This document shows, one piece after another, positions 128 through 40,209 of a stretch of 41,180 nucleotides of DNA (the first letter of the stretch is position 1; every line of letters starts with the position of its first letter). The stretch comes from a virus, in the IMG/VR virus record IMGVR_UViG_3300042876_000489, positions 1 to 41,180 of that record; one strand, given 5' to 3'. A program made the translations under genes and the position numbers. The notes under the pieces are model-generated. The model saw only the letters and a list, made by a program, of their open reading frames with translations, was not told where the DNA came from and ran no database searches.

Positions 128-221
128 CCTCAGAGCATCCCGCGAGCTGCTCAGCAGTCCATCCCATTGGCACGACTACTGCCGCGGACTCACTGGCTTC
201 GGCTGCCTTCGTCTGGTCCAT
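1..221 (-). CDS. Unknown 140-aa protein, 5' part (gene crosses the contig join)
   Basis: The gene starts at an ATG whose first base is 221 and reads leftward to position 1. It continues on the right copy, from 41053 to the stop at 40852, for a total of 140 residues. The N-terminus reads MDQTKAAEASESAAVV and the middle has WRLRCGNKGGSAKSIALIV. The C-terminus is acidic and then basic (GRKRAAAK). I recognise no family. The start shares one base with the stop of the upstream HNH gene (TGATG), suggesting coupled translation. It is the last gene before the terminase block, so it could belong to the late leftward transcript or end the early one. In-frame passage across the join is the best evidence that the molecule is circular. 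Confidence 0.75.
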   Translation of the reverse strand, partial: MDQTKAAEASESAAVVVPMGWTAEQLAGCSEALNDRVVRAVRAAEADGWRLRCGNKGGSAKSIALIVLNERGE

Positions 222-586
222 CAGAAGTTCCTCACGTGCTGCGTGGTAGGGACAACCGGGCGACCGAAGCCGCCATCGGTGCGAACAGTCTTCTGGCTGT
301 GACAGGCATGACAGGCGCCGCGCAGATTCTCGAGCGCATCAGATCCACCCTGCGCGCGCGGCACGATGTGATCGGCGTCGGTGCTCGGTCGCTGATGGCA
401 GATGGTGCAAACGGGATCGCGCGCAATCACGATCGCTCTCTTCCGGCGCCATGCCGCATCGTAGCCACGCGCGCCGGCATTGCCGCGCGCGTGATCGCTG
501 GCGCGACGATGCACCGCGCACCGGCCGCGCTTCACGAGAGCGGGGCAGCCAGGCGCGGTGCAGGGGCGAAGAGCACGGGTGGGCAT
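221..586 (-). CDS. HNH endonuclease
   Basis: This is a 121-residue protein of the HNH nuclease family. The N-terminal part has a cysteine pair (CTAPGC) and a basic stretch. The core shows CTICHQRPSTDADHIVPRAQGG followed by NLRGACHACHSQKT, which supplies the DH-I-V-P histidine-metal motif, the Asn and the second CxxC zinc pair. Small HNH proteins next to terminase genes in HK97-like cos phages have been shown to stimulate terminase cutting and DNA packaging. On the circle this gene lies one gene upstream of the small terminase, so a packaging role is a reasonable inference. The start ATG at 586 is 18 bp after the previous gene. A free-standing homing nuclease is the alternative. Confidence 0.88.
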   Translation of the reverse strand: MPTRALRPCTAPGCPALVKRGRCAVHRRASDHARGNAGARGYDAAWRRKRAIVIARDPVCTICHQRPSTDADHIVPRAQGGSDALENLRGACHACHSQKTVRTDGGFGRPVVPTTQHVRNF

Positions 587-2610: not shown

Positions 2611-2696
2611 GGTCCTCTCCGGTCGATGTACCCGCGCAAAACCATCAACGCCGCGAACTCCACGAGCAGCGCCACGTAAGGCAGGGCGTGGCTCAT
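2604..2696 (-). CDS. Predicted 30-aa membrane micro-protein
   Basis: This short frame reads MSHALPYVALLVEFAALMVL and then RGYIDRRGPW. It is a single hydrophobic helix followed by a positively charged end. The ATG overlaps the upstream stop as ATGA and the TGA lies inside the start of the next gene, exactly the coupling style used through this operon. Small size keeps the call uncertain. If it is not translated, this gap is only a spacer. No function can be assigned. Confidence 0.45.
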   Translation of the reverse strand: MSHALPYVALLVEFAALMVLRGYIDRRGPW

Positions 2697-3751
2697 CCGA
2701 GCCCCCGGGCCCGTCCTTCGAGCAGTTCGCGGATGCTCGTCGGCGCGCCTGGTGGAGCTGGCCGTCGCTCGGTCCGCGCCACCTCCAGCGGGCGCTCTAC
2801 CGGCTGATGCTCGGCCGGCGCGCTGCGCGTGGGCACCGTGCGTCCCTCGTGCGCCGCACCGTCGCGCAGCTTGAGCAGCAGCACGCGAATGGCGCGATCC
2901 GGATCCCGCAGCGGCTTGCCGGAGAGCACCGCATCACAGCAGCGCTCGAGGTGATCGAGGTCGGTGGCGCGCACCATGCGGCCACGGTCGAGGCTTGCGC
3001 CACCAGGCGAGAGGGACGCGGCGAGTTGGTGCAGCACGTCGCGCCGGCGCGCCCCGTCGTCGGGGTAGAAGCGATTCACGAACCGACGCACGGGCACGGA
3101 CGACAACACGCCGTCGTCAGCGGGCACGTCGCGGCCTGGCTGTGTGACAGCCAGCGGGCCGTTGGCGGGTGGTGGTGGCGGGTTGTCCACATCCACCGCG
3201 CTCGGTTCGCCGCGTGGCTCTTTCCCTTGCTCAGATCTTCCGCTTCCGCTGTTTACTCCCTTCTCCGTTTCCGTTTCCGTGCTACCCAAGGGGGTGGGTG
3301 AGGGGCTTGGGGAGGGGGTAGGGGAGGGGGTTCCTTCACCATCCGCATCGGCCAGTCCATACGCGGACAGGAAGGCCTCGACCAGCGCCACTTTCGGCAG
3401 CGATCGCGCATAGGTGATCGCGCCCTTGCGGTTGTTCGCATTCGAGGCGGTGAAGAAAGGATCGAAGCGCAGGCCGTTCACGAGCCAGCAGACGTTGCGC
3501 TCGCGACGGATCCAGCCCTCCGAGCCGCTCACGGGCTTCGGCGCCTCCAGTTCACGCAGCGCGGCCTCGAGCTCGTCACGCGAGGACCGCGCGTGGATGT
3601 GCTCCAGGACGCCGAGGTAGAACACGGCGATGCCGTACTGCCCGAGCTTCAGCTTGAGCGTGTGGAACACCGCCTGCGCCAGCGGGCTCAGCAGCTGATA
3701 GTCCGCGTCGTCCACCAGCGACTCGTAGCTCGATCGATACAGCGCCTTCAC
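2693..3751 (-). CDS. Putative phage replication initiator / replisome organiser
   Basis: This is a protein of about 352 residues. The N-terminal ~130 residues (KALYRSSYESLVDDADY, then SRDELEAALRELE ... GWIRRERNVCWLVNGLRFDP ... NRKGAITYARSLPKVALVEAFLSAYGL) match the pattern of the winged-helix domain of phage replisome organisers. A low-complexity Pro/Ser/Thr linker follows (TPSPTPSPSPSPTP) and then a basic C-terminal domain. I place the start at GTG 3751: a GGAGG lies 5 bp upstream and the GTG overlaps the previous stop as GTGA. An ATG 12 bp upstream would make that GGAGG coding. The role is to bind the origin and recruit host helicase, as lambda O does. The family call is moderate because it rests on pattern memory. 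No polymerase or helicase gene is present, so the phage must borrow host enzymes. Confidence 0.5.
   Translation of the reverse strand: MKALYRSSYESLVDDADYQLLSPLAQAVFHTLKLKLGQYGIAVFYLGVLEHIHARSSRDELEAALRELEAPKPVSGSEGWIRRERNVCWLVNGLRFDPFFTASNANNRKGAITYARSLPKVALVEAFLSAYGLADADGEGTPSPTPSPSPSPTPLGSTETETEKGVNSGSGRSEQGKEPRGEPSAVDVDNPPPPPANGPLAVTQPGRDVPADDGVLSSVPVRRFVNRFYPDDGARRRDVLHQLAASLSPGGASLDRGRMVRATDLDHLERCCDAVLSGKPLRDPDRAIRVLLLKLRDGAAHEGRTVPTRSAPAEHQPVERPLEVARTERRPAPPGAPTSIRELLEGRARGLG
3290..3330. repeat. G-rich tandem repeat inside the replication gene (possible origin or quadruplex)
   Basis: The + strand carries six runs of three to five or more G within 41 bp, including a perfect tandem pair GGGGAGGGGGT at 3309-3319 and 3321-3331. 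It encodes the Pro/Ser/Thr linker of the replication protein. Lambda-type phages keep origin repeats within the initiator gene, so this is an origin candidate. It could equally be only low-complexity linker coding. Confidence 0.4.
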
Positions 3752-5032: not shown

Positions 5033-5316
5033 GCCGTGGCGGCCCCGCGGAGGACACCGCGCGCTGGCCGCGGCGCGGGACCCTCTCCTACCGGTTCGCC
5101 CAGCGGGATGAAGCCGGAGCCGCGGACGCCGGCGACGCCGGGCGCATCCGTGACCACCTTCACGAACGCGACCTCAGTCTTCGCCGATTCGACGATGACC
5201 TTCGCGACGTCCGCGATCGCACGGGCGCGCTCGATCTCCATCGGTTCCTTCTCATCCTGCAGCGCCTCGAGCGTGGCGAAGAGGTGGTTACGCAGGTCTT
5301 CTATCTTGTTCTTCAC
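5029..5316 (-). CDS. Conserved small phage protein, 95 aa
   Basis: The start is a GTG at 5316 with a GGAGAG ribosome site about 7 bp upstream. The N-terminal KNKIEDLRNHLFATLEALQDEKEPMEIERARAIADVAKVIVESAKTEVAFVK is strongly helical. From memory it resembles a widespread small phage protein of the form LRNHLF-TLEAL.D...M-IERA..IA-VAQ...N-AK-EV, whose function is not known. The C-terminal ~35 residues are Gly/Pro/Ala rich. The gene overlaps the 3' end of the HNH_3 gene by 29 bp, longer than other junctions here. Confidence 0.7.
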   Translation of the reverse strand: MKNKIEDLRNHLFATLEALQDEKEPMEIERARAIADVAKVIVESAKTEVAFVKVVTDAPGVAGVRGSGFIPLGEPVGEGPAPRPARGVLRGAATA

Positions 5317-5998
5317 GACGCGCTCTCCGGTTGATCTGTCGGCGAATGGCGCCGATCAGCTGATAGGCCTCGGTGATCGGCTTCGGGTAGTTGTGCATGG
5401 TGTTGCGGCGCATCAGATCCTGACGGCTGATCCGCTCGAGGTTGTCGAGGCGGATGTCGGTCCGATCTCCATTCCGGAACACGACGGCGTGCCCGGCCGG
5501 GAGCGGCCCGTGTGCGTCCTCCCACACGAGCACGTGCACGTAGCGCCAGTTGAAGCGCGAGGCGACGGCGCGATCGTCGGCGACCTTGCGCTTGCGGTAG
5601 CCGTCGGCATCGAGCACTTCAGTGCCGATCGGAACCCACTTGCGTTGGGCCGCGCCCGCCATCGCGCCTTTCTTGAATTGCGTCTCGGCCATGCGTCCGG
5701 GCGCGTAGCCGGGCCGGCGGAGCCCCTTATTCGCCGAGACGTGCCCCTTCGTGAATCGAGTGGCCGCACCGATGTTGTCACCGCGGCGCAGTCGACAGGC
5801 CGCGGGGCTCGCGAGGTACGCCACGCTCTTGCGCAGGCCGAGATTCGCGGCGCGCGAGTAGATGCGCGCGACCGAACAGCCCAGGGCCGCGGCCAGCGTC
5901 GCGCTGCTCTCGTGCGGGTAGCGACAGCGCAGCTGCGCATCCTCCGCGGCCGTCCACCGCCGGTATGGCGTCTTTCGGATGCCTCGGCTTCTCGTCAT
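5288..5998 (-). CDS. HNH_3-type endonuclease with N-terminal HTH
   Basis: This is a 236-residue protein. Residues about 12-58 (YRRWTAAEDAQLRCRYPHESSATLAAALGCSVARIYSRAANLGLRKS) look like a Myb/SANT or GcrA-like helix-turn-helix. The C-terminal part carries an HNH_3 core: DADGYRKRKVADD, YVHVLVWEDAHGPLPAGHAVVF, RNGDRTDIRLDNLERISR. Visible nuclease residues are the H in VHVLVWE, the H in GHAVVF and the N in DNLE. Such proteins are usually free-standing homing-type endonucleases or recombination-associated nucleases in phage replication modules. The ATG at 5998 overlaps the previous stop as ATGA. Confidence 0.85.
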   Translation of the reverse strand: MTRSRGIRKTPYRRWTAAEDAQLRCRYPHESSATLAAALGCSVARIYSRAANLGLRKSVAYLASPAACRLRRGDNIGAATRFTKGHVSANKGLRRPGYAPGRMAETQFKKGAMAGAAQRKWVPIGTEVLDADGYRKRKVADDRAVASRFNWRYVHVLVWEDAHGPLPAGHAVVFRNGDRTDIRLDNLERISRQDLMRRNTMHNYPKPITEAYQLIGAIRRQINRRARREEQDRRPA

Positions 5999-6863: not shown

Positions 6864-7141
6864 GCCACGGCCCTCTCATCCCGTCGCTTCGTCGCGAGGA
6901 TCGTCGTGACCGCGCGCAGCGCGTCCGCCTTGGAGCAGTGGGGCGTGAGGACCGACATCTCGTCGACGGCGTCCTCGAGTCCGCGGAGATACATCTCGGC
7001 GAGCTCGCTCGGGGTGCCGGCCTCGAGGTGCGGTGGCCCGCCATAGAGGCGCTCGATCGTGCAGCGGATCTGTGGGTCCAGTGAATTGAAGACCAGCTCG
7101 TCGGCGACGGTCGGCGTGGTGGAGCGGATCGCGCGGCTCAT
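6860..7141 (-). CDS. Unknown 93-aa helical protein
   Basis: The start MSRAIRSTTPTVADELVFNSLDPQI at 7141 is chosen because its ATG overlaps the previous stop as ATGA. A start 8 codons upstream would extend into that gene. The protein is mostly helical with SELAEMYLRGLEDAVDEMSVLTPHCSKADALRAVTTILATKRRDE. There are no metal or membrane motifs and no family is recognised. It lies near the attP-proximal end of the downstream leftward run. Confidence 0.65.
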   Translation of the reverse strand: MSRAIRSTTPTVADELVFNSLDPQIRCTIERLYGGPPHLEAGTPSELAEMYLRGLEDAVDEMSVLTPHCSKADALRAVTTILATKRRDERAVA

Positions 7142-7656
7142 GTGAGACCCTCCAGCCACTTCCACGGGATGCCGAAGACGCGCCGGCTATCGGCGACGGC
7201 GGCCACGCCCTGGGGATGGACGCCGAAGAGCACGAGCCCACGGTCGGTCTGCCGGAACATCGGCTGCAGACGACGCGGGATGATCGCACCCTGCACACGG
7301 CGATCGATCATCGGGAGCCGGGAGAACTCCGCCGCCTCGTGCAGCCGGTGCGCCCGGGCGAGATAGCGGCGCACGCGGGCCCATTGCCGCCCGGAGAGCC
7401 GTCCGCCGATGCCGCGCTCGATGGTGCGGCGCAGCGCGCCGTCGTAGCTGAACGAACGCTGCCCGACGTGCGACGCGCCCCGGCGGCGACGGCGGGTCTG
7501 CTGCTGGCCGGCCGGCAGCATGTCGCGCGAGACGGCCGCGCCGTTGAGCGGATAGCCCGCCGACGTGGTGACCGGGCCGCCGGCGGCGGGGATGGCGAAG
7601 CCGGCGATCGCGGCGACGGCCACCCGCATGAGGGTGCTGCGTGAGGTGGCACGCAT
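7138..7656 (-). CDS. Unknown basic 172-aa protein, first clear gene beyond attP
   Basis: The N-terminus (MRATSRSTLMRVAVAAIAGFAIPAAGGP) has a short hydrophobic segment that could be a signal or a single anchor, although the residues before it are basic and long for a signal. A basic segment TRRRRRGASHVG follows. The C-terminal half (RLSGRQWARVRRYLARAHRLHEAAEFSRLPMIDRRVQ ... GVHPQGVAAVADSRRVFGIPWKWL) is unrecognised. The start is ATG 7656 (GTG 7659 is the alternative). In an integrated prophage this gene would be close to one end of the element. Confidence 0.6.
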   Translation of the reverse strand: MRATSRSTLMRVAVAAIAGFAIPAAGGPVTTSAGYPLNGAAVSRDMLPAGQQQTRRRRRGASHVGQRSFSYDGALRRTIERGIGGRLSGRQWARVRRYLARAHRLHEAAEFSRLPMIDRRVQGAIIPRRLQPMFRQTDRGLVLFGVHPQGVAAVADSRRVFGIPWKWLEGLT

Positions 7657-7823
7657 CACGCCGCCCTCCAGGCCTGCCCGTCGCGTTCACGGGCGGTGAA
7701 CGTGACGCGGCGGCGGGAGGCGACCTGTAGGCGGCGGCAACCGAAAACCGCCGTTTTCGCGTGTCTGAAAATGCGTGACGTTTGGCGGCTCGTCGCGTCC
7801 GCTGTAGCGTCCTCCGCATTCAC
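7656..7823 (-). CDS. Possible 55-aa leader gene between attP and 7656
   Basis: A GTG at 7823 opens a frame with TAVFGCRRLQVASRRRVTFTARERDGQAWRAA at its end. It stops in a TGATG overlap with the next gene, which is the junction style of real genes here. There is no strong ribosome site, and the frame is also open upstream through attP. This is a weak call, offered because the coupling is suggestive. Confidence 0.25.
   Translation of the reverse strand: MNAEDATADATSRQTSRIFRHAKTAVFGCRRLQVASRRRVTFTARERDGQAWRAA
7742..7759. promoter_or_regulatory. Perfect dyad CGAAAAC-4-GTTTTCG near attP
   Basis: The arms CGAAAAC (7742-7748) and GTTTTCG (7753-7759) form a perfect 7-bp inverted repeat with a 4-bp centre. 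A longer GGCGG/CCGCC pair overlaps it. It lies between attP and the first gene of the downstream operon. It could be an operator, an integrase or excisionase arm site, or an RNA hairpin. Confidence 0.4.
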
Positions 7824-7878
7824 CCCACAACCATATAGTGGGCGATCATCACGATCATGTGATTGAGCGACTTCGTAG

Positions 7879-7921
7879 CCTGATAAGCGTGAGGTCCGAG
7901 GTTCAACTCCTCGATGGCCCA
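7879..7921 (+). other. attP: attP core: 3' part of tRNA-Ile(GAT)
   Basis: The + strand carries the anticodon loop CTGATAA (anticodon GAT) with the 3' anticodon-stem strand GCGTG and variable region AGGTC. A perfect T arm follows (CGAGG, loop TTCAACT, CCTCG), then acceptor strand ATGGCCC and discriminator A at 7921. The expected 5' half is absent: bases before the anticodon loop cannot pair with GCGTG. A tRNA 3' segment of about 43 bp beside an integrase gene is the standard form of an attP core that restores the host tRNA on integration. The host acceptor 5' end should therefore be GGGCCAT. No CCA is encoded here. The exact crossover limits need the host sequence. Confidence 0.88.
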
Positions 7922-7947
7922 TTTGTATCTCCGGTTGTATCATCACG

Positions 7948-8325
7948 TTAGAAGGTCCGTTCACGGCGCCCGTCCTCACCGACGGGCGCCGTGTCTGATT
8001 TTGCATGACAATTGCCCTCTGCTCGCGCGCTTTCGGCCCGCTGCAACCGCTCGATTTCCGCCACGATCAGCGCCCCTGCTTTCACGAGTTCGCGGACCCG
8101 ATCATGCGGTGTTGGTTTCCACTTGCTTGGCGACCACGGCCACACCGCCAGCAGGCGCGTGAACGCCTCACGGAAGCGCGGAGGCGCAGCGTAGCACGCC
8201 GCGGCCGAGGCCAGCTCGCCGTGCACGTACTGATCGTCCCGGTAGTCTGAGAAGTCCTCATCGGCGCGCTGCCGCAGGCGCTCCCACCTGATGGCGATGA
8301 TCGCCTTCGTGTCCCCTGGGCTCAT
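7948..8325 (-). CDS. Conserved phage accessory protein, 125 aa
   Basis: The protein starts MSPGDTKAIIAIRWERLRQR and shows YRDDQYVHGELASAAACYAAPPRFRE, then WPWSPSKWKPTPHDRVRELVKAGALIVAEIERLQRAE. The pattern GELA-AA-CYA ... WPW....WKP.....R.LVKAGALI.AEI-RL-R recurs in many temperate phages as a protein of unknown function. The ATG at 8325 overlaps the integrase stop as ATGA. It is the last gene before attP on the integrase side. Confidence 0.75.
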   Translation of the reverse strand: MSPGDTKAIIAIRWERLRQRADEDFSDYRDDQYVHGELASAAACYAAPPRFREAFTRLLAVWPWSPSKWKPTPHDRVRELVKAGALIVAEIERLQRAESARAEGNCHAKSDTAPVGEDGRRERTF

Positions 8326-9659
8326 GGCGACTCGTCCTCCGGCTCTTCCCGGATCCGTGCCAGGGCGTCGCGCGCCTCTTCCCGTGCGGGGCGCAGGTCG
8401 TCGTCGGCGTAGATCCGGTCCGCCATCTGCGTGTCGGCCCAGCCGCCCAGTTCCTTCAACGCGTCGCGGCTGATGCGTTCCTTCTTCGCCAGGTCCACGG
8501 TCACGCGTCGCAGTCCGGTCCATCCGCGGCCTGGCAGGTGCGCCACGCCCGCGAGGAACTCGTTCGCGGCCAGCATGTCCCGCAGCGTGCCGGTGCTGAG
8601 TGGGGCGCGCTGCGCCTTCGAGGCCGCCGTGGTACTCTTCCGCCCGCGTGTCTTCCGGGCCAGCGCCATACCATAGAAGAGCGGGTAGTCGACGCCGTGC
8701 TCGAGATAGGCGCGCTCCAGCTCGTGCAGGTAGCCGCCCGGTGCGGTGGCACGCCAGAACTCGCGCACCTGGCCGGGCGTCAGCAGGCGGGCCGCGCCCT
8801 TCTTATGCTTGCGTCCGACGGTGCGCAGGTCGAACAGCCCCGTCTCAAGCGTGAGGCACGAGCGCCGCGCGCGCGCGACCTGCCCGAGGCGCAGTCCGGC
8901 GCCGAGCTGCAGCATGAGATCCCAGCGCGGATCCACATCCTTCGCCGTGCGCAGCAGCGCCCGCAGCTCCTCGGTCGTGTAGCGCGGTTGCTGGACGACG
9001 ATGGCCTGCTCGCCGATCTCCTCGATGTCCTCCTGCAGCTCCGTGCGCCAGTGCTCCCACGGGAGCCAGGCGACGGGCGGAATCAGATCCTCCTCGCGCA
9101 GCCAGGCGGCCACCGTCAGCACGCGGGCCACCGTGACCTCCGTCGCACGATGGCCGCGCACGCCCTGCGCGCGCAGCGCCCGGAACGTGCTCCGCCAGAG
9201 CGCACGAAAATCGCCCTTGGTCAGCGCGCCCCACGTCTGTTCGCGGCCCCACACCGCACACGCGCGCGTCAGGGCATGCGCCATCTCGCGCCGGTACGGC
9301 TTGTCCTTTGGCCACTTCCCCCGGTGCGGATCGAACGCGCGCGCGAGCGCATCGCCGATCGTCAGCGCCCGCTTGGGCGGCGCCGCCGTCCCGGAGGCGA
9401 GTCCGATCAGCTCGTGGTACTTCGCCTTCGCGCGCGCCTTCGCCTCGTCCACGCGCTCGCTCAGCAGCCGGCCGCGTCCATCGCGCAGCGTGAGCCCCGT
9501 CGTGCGGGTGATGTCCCGCCGCGCGCCAGCGCGGGCGCCAGGCCGTGTGTCCGCGGTCCGCCAGTGCAGGTACACCACGCCGCCGCGCGTCACCGCCTCG
9601 TAGGCGGTCACGCGATTGGGGTGCTCCCCGAAGTGGTACGACCAGCCGGTTCGCGTCAC
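8322..9659 (-). CDS. int: Tyrosine-recombinase integrase
   Basis: This is a 445-residue site-specific recombinase that would integrate the phage at tRNA-Ile and, with an excisionase, remove it. Residues ~94-200 form the SAM-like core-binding domain and ~225-425 the catalytic domain. Visible catalytic positions are R257 in GAGLRLGQV, lysines in VGRKHKKG (284-287), R384 in WTGLRRVTVD, W407 in ELGGW (a usual His/Trp position) and the nucleophile Y417 in MADRIYADD. The first His of the classical HxxR box appears to be Thr381. The start is GTG 9659 because it overlaps the previous stop as GTGA. The frame upstream lacks protein-like character. The gene reads toward attP, as usual for tRNA-integrating phages. 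Confidence 0.92.
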   Translation of the reverse strand: MTRTGWSYHFGEHPNRVTAYEAVTRGGVVYLHWRTADTRPGARAGARRDITRTTGLTLRDGRGRLLSERVDEAKARAKAKYHELIGLASGTAAPPKRALTIGDALARAFDPHRGKWPKDKPYRREMAHALTRACAVWGREQTWGALTKGDFRALWRSTFRALRAQGVRGHRATEVTVARVLTVAAWLREEDLIPPVAWLPWEHWRTELQEDIEEIGEQAIVVQQPRYTTEELRALLRTAKDVDPRWDLMLQLGAGLRLGQVARARRSCLTLETGLFDLRTVGRKHKKGAARLLTPGQVREFWRATAPGGYLHELERAYLEHGVDYPLFYGMALARKTRGRKSTTAASKAQRAPLSTGTLRDMLAANEFLAGVAHLPGRGWTGLRRVTVDLAKKERISRDALKELGGWADTQMADRIYADDDLRPAREEARDALARIREEPEDESP

Positions 9660-10003
9660 GAGGCGCGACCGGCCGTGAAGATCGGGGGCCGCGTGCCGCG
9701 CTGGATCAGGTACTCCGCGCCGTCCTTCCGGCTCACGATGAGCCCGAGCCGGCACCACCGGCGCACGGCCTGTTCCGAGCGCCGATGCAACCGCGCGAAG
9801 TCGCGCGTCGTCACCTCGGTCAGCGCGTCGTCGTCGAGCGCCTCGAGGAGCTTCTGGCTGCAGCGGTCGAGGGTGTCCGCCACGGGATCGACGGCCGAGA
9901 ACTCGCGCCGGCGGGCGGCCTCGCCCTGCCAGCCGCGCGCCACGCTCTCCACCCGCGCGCGCAGCGCCGGCTCCGTCGTCATGATCCGCTCGGGTTCCGT
10001 CAT
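9656..10003 (-). CDS. HTH protein, probable excisionase or recombination directionality factor
   Basis: This is a 115-residue protein. A helical N-terminal region is followed by a MerR/excisionase-like winged helix: LTEVTTRDFARLHRRSEQAVRRWCRLGLIVSRKDGAEYLIQRG (residues about 61-103). The pattern T-RDFA-L...SEQAVRRW...GLI is that of the HTH_17 type used by many phage Xis proteins. It lies immediately upstream of int with a GTGA overlap, so both would be translated together. Xis identity is inferred from size, domain and position. A transcription regulator is the alternative. Confidence 0.65.
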   Translation of the reverse strand: MTEPERIMTTEPALRARVESVARGWQGEAARRREFSAVDPVADTLDRCSQKLLEALDDDALTEVTTRDFARLHRRSEQAVRRWCRLGLIVSRKDGAEYLIQRGTRPPIFTAGRAS

Positions 10004-12593: not shown

Positions 12594-12785
12594 CTATGCG
12601 GCCGGCTGCTCTTCTGTCGAGGGCGGCGGCATCGCGCCGCGCACGAGCCGCGCGATGTACTTCGAGCGCGTGAGCGCCTCGCGGCGGGCCTCGCGTTCGA
12701 GGCGCGCGGCCTCACCGGCGGGGATCCAGAAGGTGATCGGAACCCCTCGGTCAGCGAGCTTTCGGTGGGGCGTGGAGGCGGCCAT
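12594..12785 (-). CDS. Ribbon-helix-helix DNA-binding protein, 63 aa
   Basis: The start MAASTPHRKLADRGVPITFWIPAG at 12785 gives a compact protein. VPITFWIPAGEAARLEREARREALTRSKYIARLVRGA has the strand-helix-helix pattern of Arc/MetJ-type ribbon-helix-helix proteins (beta strand ~15-20, helices ~23-35 and ~39-48). It is the first gene leftward from the divergent promoter region and faces the HTH repressor gene, a position typical of a Cro-like or early-transcript regulator. That role is inferred. A relaxase accessory or antitoxin-type RHH is the alternative. Confidence 0.72.
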   Translation of the reverse strand: MAASTPHRKLADRGVPITFWIPAGEAARLEREARREALTRSKYIARLVRGAMPPPSTEEQPAA

Positions 12786-12792
12786 TGTTATT

Positions 12793-12802
12793 ACCTGTAG
12801 GT
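12793..12802. promoter_or_regulatory. Operator-like dyad ACCT-GT-AGGT
   Basis: A short inverted repeat lies between the divergent early genes, downstream of the leftward promoter candidate. The 9-mer CCTGTAGGT recurs at 13697-13705 upstream of the Bor-like gene. It may be a repressor site, but it is short and unproven. Confidence 0.35.
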
Positions 12803-12816
12803 AGGGTGCGCGGTTT

Positions 12817-12845
12817 ACATTACATCCACGTTTTCTAAATGTCAA
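12817..12845 (-). promoter_or_regulatory. Leftward early promoter candidate
   Basis: On the minus strand a perfect TTGACA (12845-12840) is followed after 17 bp by TAATGT (12822-12817). TGTAAT at a 15-bp spacing is the alternative -10. It overlaps the first codons of the rightward repressor gene, so repressor-gene transcription and early leftward transcription would interfere. It would drive 12785 and the genes down to int. Confidence 0.5.
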
Positions 12846-13294
12846 TAACCCCCCTCGATCGTTCCTTGCTCGATCGGTTTCTCAAGCTCACGCGCGAGCT
12901 CACTGGCGAGCAGGTCGCGGAGGCGCTCGACGTGACTGGGGCGACGATCTCACGGTGGCGTCGAGGGGAATACCCCAGCCGCGGCTTGCACCACTCCACG
13001 CGAGGACGCATCGAGACGATACTCGCGCAGCCCGGTTGGAAGTACGTCACCCCGATTTCACCTTCGGAGGAGGAGGAGCGGGCGGCTGCCGAGAAGGCCG
13101 CCTACGCCGCCGGCGTGCTGTGGGCGCTCGCGCAGGATGCGGACCACATCGCCCGGAAGGCGCGCGATGCGCACGCCGCGATCACCTCGGGTCGGCCCGT
13201 GGGATCACCGCAGCAGCGCCAGCCACGCACCATTGGGAAGGGAACGCCCGGGACCGATCTCCCCAGGCCCCAGGACGCGAAGAAGAAGGCCTGA
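12839..13294 (+). CDS. HTH transcriptional regulator, probable lysogeny repressor
   Basis: This is a 151-residue protein. Residues about 8-52 (RSLLDRFLKLTRELTGEQVAEALDVTGATISRWRRGEYPSRGL) form an XRE-type helix-turn-helix: TGEQVAEALDV is the first helix pair and GATISRWRRGE the recognition helix. The rest is helical (EEEERAAAEKAAYAAGVLWALAQDADHIARKARDAHAAI) with a basic tail, and no LexA-type self-cleavage Ser/Lys domain is visible. It is divergent from the leftward early genes, the classic place for a CI-like repressor. There is no Shine-Dalgarno sequence before the ATG, so leaderless translation is possible. Repressor function is inferred from domain and position. Confidence 0.75.
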   Translation: MSITPLDRSLLDRFLKLTRELTGEQVAEALDVTGATISRWRRGEYPSRGLHHSTRGRIETILAQPGWKYVTPISPSEEEERAAAEKAAYAAGVLWALAQDADHIARKARDAHAAITSGRPVGSPQQRQPRTIGKGTPGTDLPRPQDAKKKA

Positions 13295-13486
13295 GTCGGC
13301 TGCAGTAGGGTCGGGATCGACGAAGTCGAGGAGCTGCCACAGAAGTTCGATGAACTCGCGCTGGTCGACGCCGGGCGGTAGCGTGCCGCGCCACCGCTCC
13401 TCGCCATGGCGATCCGTGATAACGACAACGGGTTCGCCGCCCCGGGTATAGTCCTCGACTTTGACGCCTCGCGCGCGACGCTCCAT
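13205..13486 (-). CDS. Possible 93-aa protein convergent with the repressor gene
   Basis: The frame from ATG 13486 reads MERRARGVKVEDYTRGGEPV, then VVITDRHGEERWRGTLPPGVDQREFIELLWQLLDFVDPD, which has a convincing alternation of strand and helix. Its last ~30 codons overlap the 3' end of the repressor gene on the other strand. There is a weak purine stretch (GGAAGCGGG) before the start. It is isolated from the other leftward genes, and the overlap lowers confidence. Confidence 0.4.
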   Translation of the reverse strand: MERRARGVKVEDYTRGGEPVVVITDRHGEERWRGTLPPGVDQREFIELLWQLLDFVDPDPTAADSGLLLRVLGPGEIGPGRSLPNGAWLALLR

Positions 13487-13759
13487 GCACCCGCTTCCAG
13501 TAGGGGATGTCGAGGAAGGCCGACGATCCACGCTGATGCGTGCCCGTCGTCGGGCGCGCTGTCTACTACAGCGGAGCAATGACCTTGGAGCAAGGGCAGG
13601 GGACGGGGTCAACTCCAGCGCATCGCCGAATAGACGAACGGCCCCCCGCGCGCGTCTCCGAACGTGACATGATGTACTAGCGGGCGGACTCCGGTTCCTG
13701 TAGGTTCGCGTTGACGCACGGCATGAGCGCCGCGCGCACCCACCACATGGAGACAGCCC
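13487..13759. other. Non-coding gap before the cargo genes
   Basis: About 270 bp without a convincing gene on either strand. It should contain the promoter for the rightward cargo genes, but I see no good -35/-10 pair. It contains CCTGTAGGT (13697-13705), shared with the early regulatory region, and GGAG at about 13748 as the ribosome site of the Bor-like gene. Confidence 0.5.
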
Positions 13760-14047
13760 ATGCTCAGGATCAGTGCACTGTTGGTCGCGGTTATTCTGTT
13801 AACGGGATGTTACCACGCGCAGGTAGACACGGGGCTCAAGCCCTCCACGGTCACCGTCGAGAAACGGTGGGCGCATGGGTGGATCTACGGCTTGGTTCCG
13901 CCGTCGACGGTGGATTCCCAGGCAAAGTGCGGCAAGAAGGGAGTGGCGAAGGTGGATACCCAGCTGAGCTTCGCAAACATGCTTGTCGGAAATCTCACGG
14001 GTGGCATCTACACGCCGATGTCAGTGGTAGTGACCTGCGCCGAGTGA
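13760..14047 (+). CDS. bor: Bor-like outer-membrane lipoprotein
   Basis: This is a 95-residue lipoprotein. A signal peptide (MLRISALLVAVILL) ends in the lipobox LTGC, so Cys17 would be acylated. The mature part ends KCGKKGVAKVDTQLSFANMLVGNLTGGIYTPMSVVVTCAE. This aligns with the end of lambda Bor (ICGGAENVVKTETQQTFVNG..., then LGIYTPLEARVYC): a conserved Cys, T-T-Q-x-F-x-N, GIYTP and a terminal Cys near the end. Lambda Bor is expressed from the prophage and increases serum resistance of E. coli. In this high-GC, probably environmental host the benefit must be different or unknown. A GGAG site lies about 8 bp upstream. It opens the rightward cargo segment. Confidence 0.82.
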   Translation: MLRISALLVAVILLTGCYHAQVDTGLKPSTVTVEKRWAHGWIYGLVPPSTVDSQAKCGKKGVAKVDTQLSFANMLVGNLTGGIYTPMSVVVTCAE

Positions 14048-14056
14048 ACGCCTGGT

Positions 14057-14090
14057 GCGGCAGCCGACAGCATCACATGTTGGCTGCCGC
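14057..14090 (+). terminator. Stem-loop after the Bor-like gene
   Basis: GCGGCAGCC (14057-14065) pairs with GGCTGCCGC (14082-14090), a 9-bp stem with a 16-nt loop. It starts 9 bp after the TGA stop. There is no T-run, so it is a weak or factor-assisted terminator or a 3'-end stabiliser. Confidence 0.5.
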
Positions 14091-14133
14091 GCCCGGCCAG
14101 AACCGCATGTAAACAAGAAGAGGGGGGGAGGGC

Positions 14134-14598
14134 GTGCGATTTGTTGTCGCTATTCTCGCGCTGACTGTAGTCGCCTGTTCGGGGGACGGCATGAACGAGC
14201 CGGCTCCGACTGATCCGTATGCCAGGTTCAACGGCAAATGGAGAATCGACTCGTTGCTCGGCCAAAAGCTGCCCTCTTACACGATTGCGACGCCGACCGA
14301 CAGTTCACGCCGCGAGTCGGTAACCATCGAAGTTCACTCTACGGTGGGTGGCATCGCCAACTTCACTGAATATCGCGACTCCAGCTACGCTCGCAGCTTC
14401 ATCAACGGGCTGGGGTGGGTCACGTTCAACCGGACGAACTCAGGCACCTACAAAATGAGCTGGTTGGTCAATGACCTTTGGCTGTCACTCACTGCCGGCA
14501 CAGCCCCGTCATTCATTCAGCTCAGGATGATCAACGAGAACCGCCTTGTGCGCATGTACGGGAGTGAGGCGGGGGAAGTGTTTGTGAGGGTTCACTAG
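14134..14598 (+). CDS. Lipoprotein with lipocalin-like domain
   Basis: This is a 154-residue protein. The start is GTG with a strong purine-rich site (GGGGGGGAGG) just upstream. The N-terminus MRFVVAILALTVVAC is a lipoprotein signal with Cys15 as the lipidation site. The mature part begins FNGKWRIDSLLGQKLPSYTIATPTD, a GxW motif plus a ..LxxxLPSYTI segment, then alternating strands. This looks like a lipocalin-type barrel. Small lipoproteins with W-x-L-x-S-x-N-G-x-x-LP-type openings are, from memory, frequent in Gemmatimonadota, the main hint about the host. Function is unknown. It is probably envelope cargo expressed in the lysogen. Confidence 0.65.
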   Translation: MRFVVAILALTVVACSGDGMNEPAPTDPYARFNGKWRIDSLLGQKLPSYTIATPTDSSRRESVTIEVHSTVGGIANFTEYRDSSYARSFINGLGWVTFNRTNSGTYKMSWLVNDLWLSLTAGTAPSFIQLRMINENRLVRMYGSEAGEVFVRVH

Positions 14599-14649
14599 CT
14601 CACAGTTCACACGCCGTCGCGATCGCGAGGCCCTCTTTGGGAGATTGGA

Positions 14650-15021
14650 ATGCGAGCCCGATCACTGTTGCTGGCGTTGCTCGTCCTGGCGCCATCACTC
14701 GCCGCTGCTCAGAAGAACTGCAAGAAGGGCATCCCGTGCGGCAACGGCTGCATCGCTGCCAATAAAGTCTGCCGGATCGGGAACGCAGCGCCGGCGCCGG
14801 CGCGCGCGCCGGCCGTGCAGGAGGCGTCGACCGCGGCGCCCTCGACGACTTCCGGTCCGGTCGCGATGGGGCCGTGGGTGGCGTCGTCGCGCGGGCGCAC
14901 CTATTACCGCGCCGGCTGCGGCGGAGCGAACAAACTGAGCGCCCAGAATCGCATCTACTTCAAGGACGAGGCGTCGGCCGAGGCGGCCGGCTACGCGCGG
15001 TCCGGGGCGAAGGGGTGTTGA
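14650..15021 (+). CDS. Exported Cys-rich protein with Ada-like metal-site tail
   Basis: This is a 123-residue protein. Signal peptide MRARSLLLALLVLAPSLAAAQ ends in an AAA-Q cleavage site. The mature start NCKKGIPCGNGCIAANKVCRIG is a small Cys-rich module of a type seen in exported nuclease-associated proteins. An Ala/Pro linker leads to WVASSRGRTYYRAGCGGANKL, then NRIYFKDEASAEAAGYARSGAKGC. This last part resembles the zinc-binding module of Ada (YY..GC ... N...F....EA-AAGYR-S..C) but with reduced spacing. A GGGAG site precedes the ATG. It is presumably periplasmic or surface cargo. No enzyme domain is present. Confidence 0.6.
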   Translation: MRARSLLLALLVLAPSLAAAQKNCKKGIPCGNGCIAANKVCRIGNAAPAPARAPAVQEASTAAPSTTSGPVAMGPWVASSRGRTYYRAGCGGANKLSAQNRIYFKDEASAEAAGYARSGAKGC

Positions 15022-15023
15022 CG

Positions 15024-15344
15024 ATGGCAGGCGAGATCCTACTACCCGTTACAGGCTGGAAAAACAAGCAGGGCACGGCCGATCGGGCGTGCATCTGCGG
15101 GAGTTGGCAGCAGCACTGGATCAACCTGTCCCGGCGCGAGTGGCCGTACTACTGCACCGTCGCCGCGTGCACCCGCCGCGCCACCGTAGGTGCTCACGTC
15201 ATCAATACCGACGCGCGCACGTCGGGCGAGTGGATTGTCCCGTTATGCGATTCCTGTAACAAGCGGACAGACGCCTTCACGCTCACCCTGGACACGGCCC
15301 TTGAGCCGGCGAATCGCGCAGAAACCTGCGAGAAGAGACGGTAG
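15024..15344 (+). CDS. HNH-like zinc-cysteine protein, 106 aa
   Basis: The sequence is WKNKQGTADRACICGSWQQHWINLSRREWPYYCTVAACTRRATVGAHVINTDARTSGEWIVPLCDSCNKRTDAF. It has paired Cys (CICGSW; CTVAAC), GAHV, then VPLCDSCNK, a layout like a zinc-bound HNH or treble-clef fold. From memory a similar bacterial protein family is found next to defence and phage cargo genes. Without the full HNH histidine pair, catalysis is doubtful. The ATG is 2 bp after the previous stop. It is followed after 5 bp by a KTSC-like gene, so the two are likely co-expressed. Confidence 0.62.
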   Translation: MAGEILLPVTGWKNKQGTADRACICGSWQQHWINLSRREWPYYCTVAACTRRATVGAHVINTDARTSGEWIVPLCDSCNKRTDAFTLTLDTALEPANRAETCEKRR

Positions 15345-15349
15345 CATTC

Positions 15350-15577
15350 ATGCAACTGTATCGTGATGTCGACGGAGACTCGGCCGTGGTGGCGTTCGAG
15401 GAGGGGCCCGACTTTCTTCGGGTGCAGTTCGACGACGGCGGTGTCTACCTGTACACGATGGCCAGTGCCGGTGCAATGCACCTCGATCGCGTCAAGCAGC
15501 TCGCCCGAAGTGGCGAGGGGTTGAATGCGTACATCAATCGCCATCTGCGGAAGCGATACGCGCGGAAGGAGCGATAG
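15350..15577 (+). CDS. KTSC-like domain protein, 75 aa
   Basis: The sequence is DGDSAVVAFEEGPDFLRVQFDDGGVYLYTMASAGAMHLDRVKQLARSGEGLNAYINRHLRKRYARK. It shows the L-V-F-----Y-Y ... L..A.SGEGLN-YIN..+...Y pattern of KTSC domains (first noted fused to lysyl-tRNA synthetases, otherwise alone). It has a small basic C-terminus. It sits immediately after the zinc-cysteine gene and before a membrane protein gene. Its molecular role is not established for the family. Confidence 0.65.
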   Translation: MQLYRDVDGDSAVVAFEEGPDFLRVQFDDGGVYLYTMASAGAMHLDRVKQLARSGEGLNAYINRHLRKRYARKER

Positions 15578-15581
15578 CGCG

Positions 15582-16094
15582 ATGGACGGGTTCTGGAGTG
15601 GGGTTGGGGCGAGCGCCGTTGGTGCCGTGGTGGCCCTCGCGGTGCCATGGCTCACATCGATGCTCGGGCGCCGCGCGCGTAGGCTTCAGACGCTCCATGC
15701 CTTGCGCAGCGAGCTGGCGACGAACGCGCTAGCCATTGGGGCAGAAACGCGCAGCGTCACCGCGGCGAAGCCCATGGTCCAGATCTTCGATGCGGTTGGT
15801 GCCGACGTGGCCCTTTGGTACCCGGATACACGGGATAAGACCCTCATCGCCTACCATTTCCTCAGAGAACTTTCCGCGGCCATGGACGACCTCGATGCCG
15901 CGCGCGTTGCCACCCTCGCCGTTCCGGTGACGTCGCTGCCCACTTGGGGGTTCGGTGGGGTAGCCGCGAGAGATCCCGTCCATCGACGTGGCTCCCGCAT
16001 CGAAGATCTCACCAGAGAAGCAAGGGTTCTGACCCGCGAAGCCATCACGGCGATCGACGGCGAAATTGTACGCGTGCAGCAATGGGATGCATGA
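15582..16094 (+). CDS. Membrane-anchored protein of unknown function, 170 aa
   Basis: The start MDGFWSGVGASAVGAVVALAVPWLTSMLGRRARRL at 15582 lies 4 bp after the previous stop. It gives one N-terminal transmembrane helix followed by a basic stretch, so the rest is probably cytoplasmic. The soluble part is helical (LHALRSELATNALAIGAE ... LIAYHFLRELSAAMDDLDAAR). N-anchored cytoplasmic helical proteins in prophage cargo regions are often exclusion or signalling proteins, but nothing here proves that. No family is recognised. Confidence 0.6.
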   Translation: MDGFWSGVGASAVGAVVALAVPWLTSMLGRRARRLQTLHALRSELATNALAIGAETRSVTAAKPMVQIFDAVGADVALWYPDTRDKTLIAYHFLRELSAAMDDLDAARVATLAVPVTSLPTWGFGGVAARDPVHRRGSRIEDLTREARVLTREAITAIDGEIVRVQQWDA

Positions 16095-16282
16095 CCTCGC
16101 CCTGTCGCGCGTGGCACGGATGAGTGGGATACAGCGGAGTTCGTGGCGGACGTCTCGTGTCTTCTGCGTAAGTTCTTGCGCTCTATAACCTTGCTTGTCT
16201 TTGCAAATTCTCCACTGAACCCTCTTTTCCGTAATCGACCGATTTCCTAGCGTGATGCGACCTTCACCTTCAGAGGCACGCA

Positions 16283-16513
16283 ATGGAATCGCATTCGATC
16301 GCAGATGAACGCACGACCTTCACGGGGGTCGCCGGGAACCGGTGCTGGGCGGTCATGATCAGCCCGACGCTCTCGACACCGCATAGCCCGGCTGTGATTC
16401 GGATAGGTGACACCGAGCACCTTCTCGAGACATTTCCTTTCGCACCCGAGCAGCCTGACGTGGAAGCGGCCGTGAGCCGTTGGCTGCAGGACCGACGGCG
16501 ATACGCTCCCTAG
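16283..16513 (+). CDS. Unknown 76-aa protein at the end of the cargo segment
   Basis: The sequence MESHSIADERTTFTGVAGNRCWAVMISPTLSTPHSPAVIRIGDTEHLLETFPFAPEQPDVEAAVSRWLQDRRRYAP shows a strand-rich first half and a helix at the end. The preceding 188 bp are less GC-rich than their surroundings and contain TATAAC (16184-16189) as a possible -10 without a good -35. Its stop overlaps the end of the convergent late operon by 4 bp. Confidence 0.5.
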   Translation: MESHSIADERTTFTGVAGNRCWAVMISPTLSTPHSPAVIRIGDTEHLLETFPFAPEQPDVEAAVSRWLQDRRRYAP

Positions 16514-17169
16514 AACGCGATCGCAGCGAGGGCCGCCATGGTCACGCCGGCGCCTAGCAGCGCGCTCGTGATCCGAGACGGGCAGGGCAGTGGCCCGATC
16601 TTGCAGCGCAGCGCCTTCTCCTGCGCGGCCAGCTCTCGCTCACGCGCGGCGAGCTCCGTGCGTAGATCCGCCTTCTCGGCGGAATCGGCCTGCACCTGCG
16701 CCTCGAGCGCGGCCACCCGCACGCGCGCGGAGTCCCGCTCGGCGGTGCGCGCATCGCGTTCGGTGAGGTACGCCATGGCCGTGCGATTCGCCTCGAGGTT
16801 GAGGGCCTCGAGGTGGGCGGCCATCTGGTAGACACTCGTCAGCGAGTCGGCCACGGCGCGCGCCGCGGCCGCCTGCACCTCGCGTAGCCTGGCGAGCTGC
16901 TCGTCACCGCGCGCGGCGGCGGCGTCGCTGCGGGCCGTTGCCCGCTGGAGGGGCACGCGTGTTGCCGCGGAGGCCTCCGCCGCCGCGGCTGAGCGCACGG
17001 AGTCCGCGCGTACCACGGCGCGCATCGAGTCCGCGACGTTGCGGGCGTGCGCCTGCTCGGCACGGCGGGCGCCGTCCCAGCGATCGCACGCGCGCAGCGC
17101 CGCGAGGACCACGAGCGCCGCGAGGACGATGGCGATGATGCGTGCCGGGGCGCCAGAGAGGTTGGGCAT
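16510..17169 (-). CDS. Spanin-like coiled-coil membrane protein
   Basis: This is a 219-residue protein. The N-terminal helix RIIAIVLAALVVLAALRAC crosses the membrane. A long charged coiled coil with Ala/Arg/Asp/Glu heptads follows (SLTSVYQMAAHLEALNLEANRTAMAYLTERDARTAERDSARVRVAALEAQV...), then CKIGPLPCPSRITSALLGAGVTMAALAAIAF as a second hydrophobic end. The layout fits an inner-membrane spanin of the Rz type, but the C-terminal hydrophobic segment is unusual and no overlapping Rz1 lipoprotein was found. The start is TGATG with the upstream gene. It is the final gene of the late operon. Confidence 0.55.
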   Translation of the reverse strand: MPNLSGAPARIIAIVLAALVVLAALRACDRWDGARRAEQAHARNVADSMRAVVRADSVRSAAAAEASAATRVPLQRATARSDAAAARGDEQLARLREVQAAAARAVADSLTSVYQMAAHLEALNLEANRTAMAYLTERDARTAERDSARVRVAALEAQVQADSAEKADLRTELAARERELAAQEKALRCKIGPLPCPSRITSALLGAGVTMAALAAIAF

Positions 17170-17465
17170 CATTCGCACACCTCCGTGATCTCGTGAATGC
17201 GCTTGTAGACGCTGTGGGTGATGGTAAAGCGGACGGTGTACGTGCTGCCCTTCACGAGCGCGGCCGTGTTCGGCAGGTTGCCGCGGAAGGTCCCGTGCGT
17301 GCCGGCGACATAGGCGCAGGCGATGTTGGCGCCGCCCGTGATGGGGGTACCGGCGCTTCCCAGGACATCGGCGATCACCGTGGCGGAGGCATCGAGGTAG
17401 ATCCCGTCCGCCTGATCACGGGCGCGGTTGTAGGCGAGGGTGTTGTCGCTGCCAGCCGAGAGCAT
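17169..17465 (-). CDS. Small beta-rich virion-region protein, 98 aa
   Basis: The sequence starts MLSAGSDNTLAYNRARDQADGIYLDASATVIADVLGSAGTPI. The second half has LPNTAALVKGSTYTVRFTITHSVYKRIHEITEVC, which reads as a small immunoglobulin-like or tail-fibre accessory beta domain. It is coupled to the short gene upstream by TAATG and follows the tail fibre gene, so a tail-tip or fibre accessory role is a fair guess. No family is recognised. Confidence 0.55.
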   Translation of the reverse strand: MLSAGSDNTLAYNRARDQADGIYLDASATVIADVLGSAGTPITGGANIACAYVAGTHGTFRGNLPNTAALVKGSTYTVRFTITHSVYKRIHEITEVCE

Positions 17466-24546: not shown

Positions 24547-25361
24547 CAGAAATAGCCTCGGGGCGCAAATGCCAGCCCGGTCTCGGCGGTGGACAGCTTG
24601 AGCTGCGGGTACCCCGCGCGCAGCGGATCGCCGTCACTGGGGCGCAGCACGAGCCATCCGCCCGCGGTGATCCAGGCGCGTGCGCTCGATCGCACGCCGG
24701 CGGTCGTGACCTTGGTGATGAGCTGCTCGGCGTGATCAATGTCGAGCGACTCGCCAACAAGCAGGGCGCCGGTCAGCGTCATCGAGCCCACGAGCTCGCC
24801 GCCGGCGGTGAGCACCGAGAGCACGCGGCTCGATACGGTACCGCCCGTGGTGTTCGTGATGAGGATGCGGGGCGCGCACGGCGCGCTGCCCAGTGGGATC
24901 GGCACCGGCGTGGAGCCGAATGAGATGGGCGCCGCGAGATCGCCGAGCGCGTAGGCGAGCGGGTCGGGGCAGGTCAGTTTCAGTTGGCACTTTCCACCCT
25001 TCGCGAGGAAGCCCGGGGCCGTGGGCTGCAGCAGCACCGACTGCACCCGGCCATAGCGCGCGCGTGCCGTCAGGTCAATCCGGCGTACTTCGATGGTGCG
25101 CCCGAAGAGGAGCGCGTTGAGCTGGTCCTCCTCGGCAAGTCGCGCGGCCGCCGATGCGGCGAGGATCACGCCATCGAGCGTCATCTCGCGCGCCGGCACC
25201 CGGGCATCCGCCGACGTGAGCTGGGCGCCCATGACGCCCGGCAATTCGACCAGCTGGTCCGTCAGCGTGAAGCCGTTCCACAGATCCGCCGACTCCGACA
25301 TCACGAACCCCAGCGTGCTGAGATCGGTGCCGTCCACGAAGATCATCGTCCGTGCACCCAT
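24546..25361 (-). CDS. Distal tail protein (Dit-like)
   Basis: This is a 271-residue protein right after the tape measure. The sequence TLGFVMSESADLWNGFTLTDQLVELPGVMGAQLTSADARVPAREMTLDGVILAASAAARLAEEDQLNALLFGRTIEVRRIDLTARARYGRVQSVLLQ fits the N-terminal belt domain of Dit proteins. A galectin-like beta half follows (PRILITNTTGGTVSSRVLSVLTAGGELVGSMTLTGALLVGESLDIDHAEQLI). Dit forms the hexameric ring at the tail end on which the hub sits. The start may be MGARTM at 25361 (TGATG) or ATG 25346. Position supports the call strongly. Confidence 0.75.
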   Translation of the reverse strand: MGARTMIFVDGTDLSTLGFVMSESADLWNGFTLTDQLVELPGVMGAQLTSADARVPAREMTLDGVILAASAAARLAEEDQLNALLFGRTIEVRRIDLTARARYGRVQSVLLQPTAPGFLAKGGKCQLKLTCPDPLAYALGDLAAPISFGSTPVPIPLGSAPCAPRILITNTTGGTVSSRVLSVLTAGGELVGSMTLTGALLVGESLDIDHAEQLITKVTTAGVRSSARAWITAGGWLVLRPSDGDPLRAGYPQLKLSTAETGLAFAPRGYF

Positions 25362-28300: not shown

Positions 28301-28783
28301 ATCCGCGGACAGGCCGAACATATCCATCGCCTGGTCGAGCCCGCCGATGATGCCCGTCAAATCCTCGCCGGTGGCATCCGCGACCTTCGTGACGATGGCG
28401 AGCCGCTTCTGGACCTCTTCGATGGAGTTGCCACCTTGACGGGCGATCTCCGCGGCCGCTCCCGCGAGCTCCGCCTGACTGCGCGGTCCCGCCAGCGACA
28501 TCTCGCGGATCGTGTCACGCAGCTGCGTCATCTGCGCCGTCGTGCCCGGCACGCGCGCCTCGACCTTCCGCAGCTCACTCTCCACCTGCTCGGCCATCTT
28601 CGCGGCGGCAATGCCGACGCCGAGCATCGCCGCGCTGATGGCGCCGACGGCGGCGACGGGATGCGCCTTCACATAAGCGGCGAGCTTTCCGAACTGGCCT
28701 TCCGCGTCCTTGAGGTCGCGATCCAACCCCTCGGTGCTGGCCCGAAGATCGTAGAAGAGCTCTGCGAGCTTGCCGCGCGCCAT
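25361..28783 (-). CDS. Tape measure protein, 1140 aa
   Basis: This is a long Ala/Glu/Arg-rich helical protein that sets tail length and is ejected with DNA. The N-terminal core (MARGKLAELFYDLRASTEGLDRDLKDAEGQFGKLAAYVK, residues 1-39) is followed by a hydrophobic segment HPVAAVGAISAAMLGVGIAAAKMAEQ. The phage tape-measure domain (AGAAAEIARQGGNSIEEVQKRLAIVTKVADATGEDLTGIIGGLDQAMDMFGLSADDAEGFLAQLYATAKNRMPITDLFGAFQAAAPAVRDFGLDAETTMRALGAL) matches the TP901-type core. A second hydrophobic stretch lies near the middle (GLGAVIGAGLPVAGAAASIISGLVSSA). The start overlaps the upstream stop as TAATG. At about 0.15 nm per residue a tail near 170 nm is expected. Confidence 0.93.
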   Translation of the reverse strand: MARGKLAELFYDLRASTEGLDRDLKDAEGQFGKLAAYVKAHPVAAVGAISAAMLGVGIAAAKMAEQVESELRKVEARVPGTTAQMTQLRDTIREMSLAGPRSQAELAGAAAEIARQGGNSIEEVQKRLAIVTKVADATGEDLTGIIGGLDQAMDMFGLSADDAEGFLAQLYATAKNRMPITDLFGAFQAAAPAVRDFGLDAETTMRALGALLERGMNAKQAASELKQYGAAGREGAAEIRKLAGTYDLAADAVARLNTAQATMNASAENSWKTIKNNLNAAMIDLGQTILPTVTKEFQGLVGILDHFNGTLDQIEGKRYVGTLVTGFSTSGKGVSAKDFRKQTYDANLLAGQGQLNLGGLSVAQLDRIITNIKAMSRETGQAEGQFVSLYRAIAAARQEAEKLEKAPKPGSKPAGTGSGGVRTADQVTKDLEAAKAAGKAADEALERQAAAISRAVEQALRAIDAREKAVAQIREELADDLVNSTATKLDDIALAYDRKITAALAAEAPEEAETWRRRKQRALDVQQVIEDTDEAARSLGLRFGDVANANKGVTSSTARTTQELLNQARALQQAVDGALQLADAFGLMDERTANTLRSVAQIAANIPALTNAWKTRGESGSGGLGAVIGAGLPVAGAAASIISGLVSSAKAAREHAKALVEARGKLTESLQDRIGRSGLTDQQQRERDRVQQQRADLTAMLDLLVQSPGIRIGTRDEFLAKDEGGQRKVLTDALAREKAKFPAGFESSLMRALEDAIKQFDLIADASRKAAEAMAAELAEKRKDVDASLAERRLALAGKTEETDALRFARQQEKELADARAGGVYTAAQLAELEALLGAEREKYIADQKKRRDEEAAQKAREVQQGREDLQTRINAANGETPEERARRQALEREREVLDWMAKGADATTLALLALAQAADAAAQATREKIEAEREMQDLEVELLRAQGKADAADARQFELDLQRQYDDAVAAGKSPEFLAKLAEVQAAKRAQRAAQTTAAATSAGAEAGMAAGAGGEAGVSSASTGVQTATVVQVDRMLGLLGTLVAYSREELDVLKDFVAAAVAPRAPLLPPSLPSSFSVGSGGQLIQIRVQLTQQFYGPVGGGREGGQAVGQAALEAINVGLANVALLTAQGRGEVGR

Positions 28784-30494: not shown

Positions 30495-30566
30495 CGGATG
30501 CTCCGGTGTCGGTGGTGAGGATCAAGCCGGGCGGCCGGCGCACGCGGCGCCAACCGCCCCGCGCGG

Positions 30567-31316: not shown

Positions 31317-31355
31317 GGATGGCTCCTCGGTGGGTGGTCGGGTGAAGAGGTCGGA

Positions 31356-35417: not shown

Positions 35418-35676
35418 GGTGACGGACCTCCGATTGGGCGATCGGAGATCACGCCAGCAACGCAACGGCGCGGACCGCCGACCGCGTGAGTGGACACTCA
35501 CGACGTGTCAGGCAGGGTCCGCGCCGCATCGGCGTCGCGTCAGTCTGCGTCCGCGCGCGGGAGGTGGGCAGGCATCGGCCTCCGTGATTCCCCCGCGCGC
35601 GCTTTCCCATCAGTTCAGACGGTACGATAACACCGTCAAGTGTGGTCTGGGGCTCGTCTAGCGCCTCGGTGCGGAG
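35418..35676. other. 259-bp gap before the capsid gene (possible promoter)
   Basis: This is the longest non-coding stretch in the late operon. It contains the inverted repeat GACGGT...ACCGTC (about 35619-35638). On the minus strand a TTGACG overlaps that repeat and could be a -35, but a good -10 was not found. It may hold a separate promoter or an mRNA leader for the capsid. Only the GGAGG site directly before 35417 is clear. Confidence 0.35.
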
Positions 35677-40202: not shown

Positions 40203-40209
40203 CGGACGC

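Follow-up and report, generated by a model that had tools for sequence, protein, structure and literature searches.

We propose that excision joins the early promoter of a tRNA-targeting temperate phage to its replication and late genes, and that integration separates them; we put this reading just short of an even chance. In the window, meaning the whole 41,180-nucleotide stretch of viral DNA analysed, the attachment site (attP) lies inside a long run of leftward genes, beyond the integrase gene (int). The topology and the promoter ranks fit such a switch, which had been suggested by the initial annotation and which we regard as plausible but unproven.

The window carries a 127-bp direct terminal repeat, giving a circle of 41,053 bases. 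Outside an immunity block at 12786-16500, which was excluded from the strand count, codon-model gene prediction placed 57 of 57 genes leftward and none rightward, and on the circle this train runs uninterrupted from 12785 round to 16510. In order of transcription, the early promoter is followed by 12594-12785, small early genes, a likely excisionase gene (9656-10003), int, 7948-8325 and attP. Beyond attP come 7138-7656, an HNH gene (5288-5998), an initiator-like gene (2693-3751), a second HNH gene (221-586) and the small terminase subunit gene (TerS), and then the large terminase subunit (TerL), portal, head and tail genes, ending at 16510. Among the genes of this train beyond attP are the following.

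221 to 586, minus strand: HNH endonuclease (PF01844, 6e-11)
2693 to 3751, minus strand: replication-initiator-like protein (family shared with a protein of genome G171)
5288 to 5998, minus strand: HNH endonuclease (phrog_1891, 2e-46)
7138 to 7656, minus strand: first confidently predicted gene past attP, no family (gene prediction)
16510 to 17172, minus strand: final gene of the leftward train (gene prediction)
25361 to 28783, minus strand: tape measure protein (phrog_28)
34158 to 35501, minus strand: major head protein (phrog_10)
36598 to 38349, minus strand: portal protein (PF04860, phrog_12)
38538 to 40304, minus strand: terminase large subunit, HK97 type (PF20441, PF03354, phrog_9)
40210 to 40707, minus strand: terminase small subunit (PF05119, phrog_83)

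The claim that attP divides a leftward operon is confirmed by the position of the core between int and 7138-7656, inside these 57 genes, and the same position bears out that integration would place the two halves at opposite ends of the prophage, int at one and the replication and virion genes at the other. The annotated path from the promoter through int and attP to the virion genes and 16510 also stands, except that the initiator had been placed directly past attP. The protein encoded there, 7138-7656, matched no family in Pfam, PHROGs, NCBIfam or PDB searches, and the initiator label was dropped for it. We assign that role instead to 2693-3751, because a member of the same family in G171, 29% identical to it, matches phrog_270 (replication initiation, 4e-31) and the DnaD-like phrog_1701. 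Neither protein has close relatives in viral_contigs.

The attP core and the elements around it are listed below.

7656 to 8006, minus strand: open frame spanning the attP core, its stop sharing TGATG with the start of the next gene (coding potential unsupported)
7672 to 7714, no strand assigned: long imperfect inverted repeat, or strong hairpin, just upstream of the start codon at 7656 (repeat search)
7742 to 7759, no strand assigned: perfect palindrome CGAAAACCGCCGTTTTCG, candidate regulator site, the sole GAAAAC-N-GTTTTC in the window
7760 to 7779, plus strand: arm-like direct repeat CGTGTCTGAAAATGCGTGAC, putative Int arm site (repeat search)
7878 to 7923, plus strand: attP core, equal to the tRNA-Ile(GAT) 3' half, which starts in the anticodon loop, with TT added after the 3' end (exact match to tRNA-Ile genes)
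7962 to 7993, plus strand: 13-bp GC-rich hairpin with a T-rich tail on the plus strand and no T tract leftward
7990 to 8009, plus strand: arm-like direct repeat CGTGTCTGATTTTGCATGAC, putative Int arm site (repeat search)

The core is 46 bp long, and the same 46 bp form attL of an integrated element in the host genome G021. Its 42-base centre exactly matches 24 stretches of genome_contigs, all from Gemmatimonadota; most of these are intact tRNA-Ile(GAT) genes, which carry on with their own 5' half at the point where the phage sequence diverges, and several are orphan cores. No match to the core was found in viral_contigs. The two 20-nt arm-like repeats, at 7760 and 7990, are 80% alike and lie one on each side of the core, with no further copy in the window. 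Judged on these sequence features, namely a core identical to a tRNA, an adjoining int and arm-like repeats, the window phage qualifies as a predicted tRNA-targeting temperate phage with a tyrosine integrase.

We also observed orphan tRNA-Ile(GAT) 3' halves away from any tRNA at seven loci (L002, L003, L004, L006, L010, L016 and L022), and several orphan cores have a common GTGAACATTCGCGCACAA-like arm before them. The tRNA-Ile(GAT) gene is a hot spot for integration: one genome (PR.004) holds at least four copies of the core. The open frame that crosses the core (7656-8006) is not supported as a gene, its codon scores being negative. A similar frame crosses the core in contig 25 of genome G359 (31753-31965), its stop likewise overlapping the start of the next gene, and both frames read as GLEPRT- or GVEPRT-like antisense tRNA.

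On the other side of attP lie int and the early genes, shown here with the candidate promoters.

7948 to 8325, minus strand: 125-aa protein, function unassigned, between int and attP (phrog_6628 and others)
8322 to 9659, minus strand: tyrosine integrase, int (phrog_1, 2e-7; Gemmatimonadota relatives; alignments)
9656 to 10003, minus strand: likely excisionase directly upstream of int (weak phrog_629 match, E 0.002)
12594 to 12785, minus strand: first early-operon gene, ribbon-helix-helix-like by eye (weak VapB-type antitoxin family match only)
12817 to 12845, minus strand: early leftward promoter candidate (rank 1 on the leftward strand)
12839 to 13294, plus strand: probable repressor, a divergently transcribed helix-turn-helix protein (weak matches to HTH_31, HTH_3 and phage repressor families)
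35612 to 35639, minus strand: weak internal promoter candidate in the 259-bp gap before the head gene (rank 5, 6.6 bits)

In alignments, the integrase keeps the R, GLRR and Y boxes, and its catalytic His-II is replaced by Thr, where most relatives have Tyr. Across the integrase family (L110-L139), most members carry Tyr (WYGLRR) or Thr in place of the box II His, yet members sit in intact att-flanked elements. No close relative of int was found in viral_contigs, and neither this integrase nor that of G359 matched annotated phages. A homologue of the likely excisionase adjoins int in the same way in the viral record G416. The 125-aa protein, stand-alone here, matches the C-terminal portion of several far longer phage proteins without an assigned function. 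A leftward gene with good codon bias (13205-13486) extends over the end of the rightward repressor gene, on its 3' side.

We ranked promoter-like sites with a generic E. coli-type sigma-70 weight matrix. The top leftward site, at 12845-12817, can be read as TTGACA-17-TAATGT or TTGACA-15-TGTAAT (11.0 and 10.3 bits), and the next unrelated leftward site scores 7.1 bits. Because 2 of 25 Markov-resampled sequences had top scores above it, the early site's score alone is not significant; what counts is that the site falls in the divergent early gap. Between the core and 7656, the strongest sigma-70-like site ranks only 26 on the leftward strand, in agreement with the earlier impression that 7657-7870 holds no convincing promoter.

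A block to leftward transcription beside attP would end the early transcript at int in both the integrated and the circular state, and the hairpin at 7962-7993 is strong enough to raise that prospect (-36 kcal/mol, z -4.3 on the leftward RNA). Its T tract, however, faces only the opposite direction, that of the tRNA, and a similarly placed hairpin occurs in integrated relatives, which is what a tRNA terminator would predict; we therefore hold a leftward block to be very improbable. A strong hairpin lies at most 135 bases downstream of the tRNA end, and usually within 50, in all 11 of the compared loci, and one near the tRNA end is common to nine integrated loci with relatives of int, the window, G359 and G416. 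Since the T tract faces the tRNA direction and hairpins are similarly placed in relatives, 7962-7993 reads as a phage-supplied terminator for the reconstituted tRNA, which would not need to halt leftward transcription. No intrinsic terminator with a T tract was found on the leftward strand from int to 7656, including 7656-7948. A sib-like role for the hairpin was rejected, as the core does not separate it from int.

In the proposed switch, the repressor would hold the early promoter (12845-12817) shut in the lysogen, and any early transcript from the prophage would run past int into the host tRNA region, antisense to it. Upon induction, the early operon would first yield Xis and Int, which would excise the circle; only then would the early transcript extend over the rejoined attP into the replication and late genes, so that excision would come first and replication second. 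A lytic transcript from the early promoter would be about 37 kb long and would probably need antitermination or helper promoters. The interpretation in the initial annotation is thus partly supported: its topology stood, the scan agreed on the lack of a visible promoter, and the gene order recurs elsewhere; read-through from int across attP, control by the repressor and the absence of any hidden promoter before the downstream genes are what we infer.

The main alternative, which we consider nearly as probable, at somewhat below an even chance, is that the genes past attP have their own activator-dependent or non-canonical promoter at about 7656-7760 and that attP accompanies int merely as part of a module; integration would then barely affect lytic expression. 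The gene model places no coding sequence in the 222 bp between the core and 7656, even though the arm-like site reaches no further than 7760, and just upstream of the first gene the palindrome at 7742-7759, which adjoins that repeat, is followed by the strong hairpin at 7672-7714. A unique palindrome, a strong hairpin and an arm-like repeat within 222 bp mean that a regulated non-canonical promoter could sit there. Phage late promoters often require a phage activator and escape sigma-70 scans. Against such a promoter stand the rank of 26 for the best site in this interval and the 165-bp gap from the core to the next firm gene in G359, which has no site above rank 46. It is unlikely, in our estimate, that the late genes are instead expressed mainly from internal promoters, for example before the head gene, leaving only the block of small genes and the initiator dependent on excision. 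The 259-bp gap before the head gene does hold the best intergenic candidate after the early promoter, but at 6.6 bits this is weak and falls under the top scores of resampled sequence; a 144-bp gap also lies directly before TerS, but it contains nothing above rank 67.

Nine of the analysed Gemmatimonadota loci have both a relative of int and a tRNA, and in all nine int points with its 3' end towards the complete tRNA, in convergent orientation; transcription of the int operon in such elements is therefore directed out of the element. Both element ends are present in two of the nine: a 14-kb element in tRNA-Gly and an 18.5-kb element in tRNA-Ile. The latter, in G021, uses the same tRNA-Ile as the window, carries a distant relative of int and has a 44-bp repeat at its other end.

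The order of early genes, int, attP, initiator and terminase recurs in contig 25 of G359 (48.6 kb), from a Gemmatimonadota genome. There, the early genes, RecE, RecT, int (30516-31748), attP (31766-31797), an initiator (39867), TerL (42951) and the portal gene (44216) follow one another on one strand, and the attP core comprises 32 bases of the host's intact tRNA-Lys(CTT), with 12-base direct repeats on either side. The order probably also recurs in G416 and G417. G416 is a 43.4-kb viral record of an integrated prophage with TerS, TerL, virion genes, a repressor block, early genes that include an Erf-like annealing protein, int and tRNA-Ser in that order and the lytic genes on one strand; in the excised form, transcription through int would continue into the record's left end, but attR is absent from the record. 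In G417 (58.7 kb), int and a methylase gene are followed by a 344-bp gap with repeats flanking its middle, a DnaD-like loader and the portal gene, and no tRNA core was found. The top coding-strand site of G416 lies in the early-repressor gap (12.1 bits), as in the window; in G359 and G417 the top coding-strand sites lie elsewhere than at the early promoter, and the stretch following attP again scores weakly (ranks 32 to 46).

This recurrence supports the layout being functional. A counter-example is G270, which carries the closest initiator relative and has the initiator upstream of int, and the separation is thus not universal. Relatives of TerL were rejected as models of the layout: four have an integrase, and in all four, with strands read from listed coordinates, int is on the opposite strand, which indicates that the layout is not inherited with TerL. 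We tentatively suggest, while holding it somewhat doubtful, a recurring class of single-polarity temperate phages in which int closes the early operon, attP comes next, and circle formation is what gives the initiator, terminase and virion genes a promoter.

If the proposal is correct, these phages would be unable to replicate in place, unlike induced lambda prophages, and an excision mutant could not express the lytic genes; gene layout could then be used to test whether a defective prophage remains inducible. An attP within a co-directional gene set is already known, from epsilon15 and phiC31. In epsilon15, as in the window, attP lies between co-directional genes (lysis, then int), but there it precedes int and is accompanied by a terminator, and replication is encoded elsewhere, in a rightward block by the repressor. 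PhiC31 is likewise temperate, and from 30 kb onwards its annotated genes, among them int, share one strand to the end; unlike the window, it has a serine integrase and no tRNA attB, and its attP lies upstream of int. G359 shares with the window early genes, int, a tRNA-derived attP, initiator, terminase and virion genes on one strand, but its integrase and terminase belong to other lineages and its tRNA is tRNA-Lys instead of tRNA-Ile. We did not find the variant seen here, in which the replication initiator and every virion gene follow attP on the same strand as int, described in the partially covered literature, and the same partial search returned nothing specific on excision-gated late genes in phages.

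In lambda, the leftward pL transcript reads through xis and int, and continues over attP only when the genome is circular. What it reaches past attP in lambda is the sib site and non-essential genes, with replication and late genes elsewhere, whereas the window has these beyond attP; sib is an RNA-processing hairpin that integration parts from int, and the window hairpin stays with int.

The closest parallel in regulation is Tn916, for which excision-coupled transcription from Porf7 is proven (PMC11658703). As predicted for the window, its main promoter reads out past the xis/int end; integration parts the replication and transfer genes from this promoter, and circularisation joins them to it (PMC11658703). 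Tn916 has an insulating terminator before the downstream genes together with an antiterminator (canT), whereas no T-tracted terminator was found on the leftward strand at 7656-7948. Tn916 is, moreover, a conjugative element and the window a tRNA-targeted phage, whose identified genes are those of packaging, head and tail, with no conjugation genes among them. If excision does connect the early promoter to the lytic genes, the lytic switch of these phages would be coupled to recombination and not to repression alone, making them a phage counterpart of Tn916.
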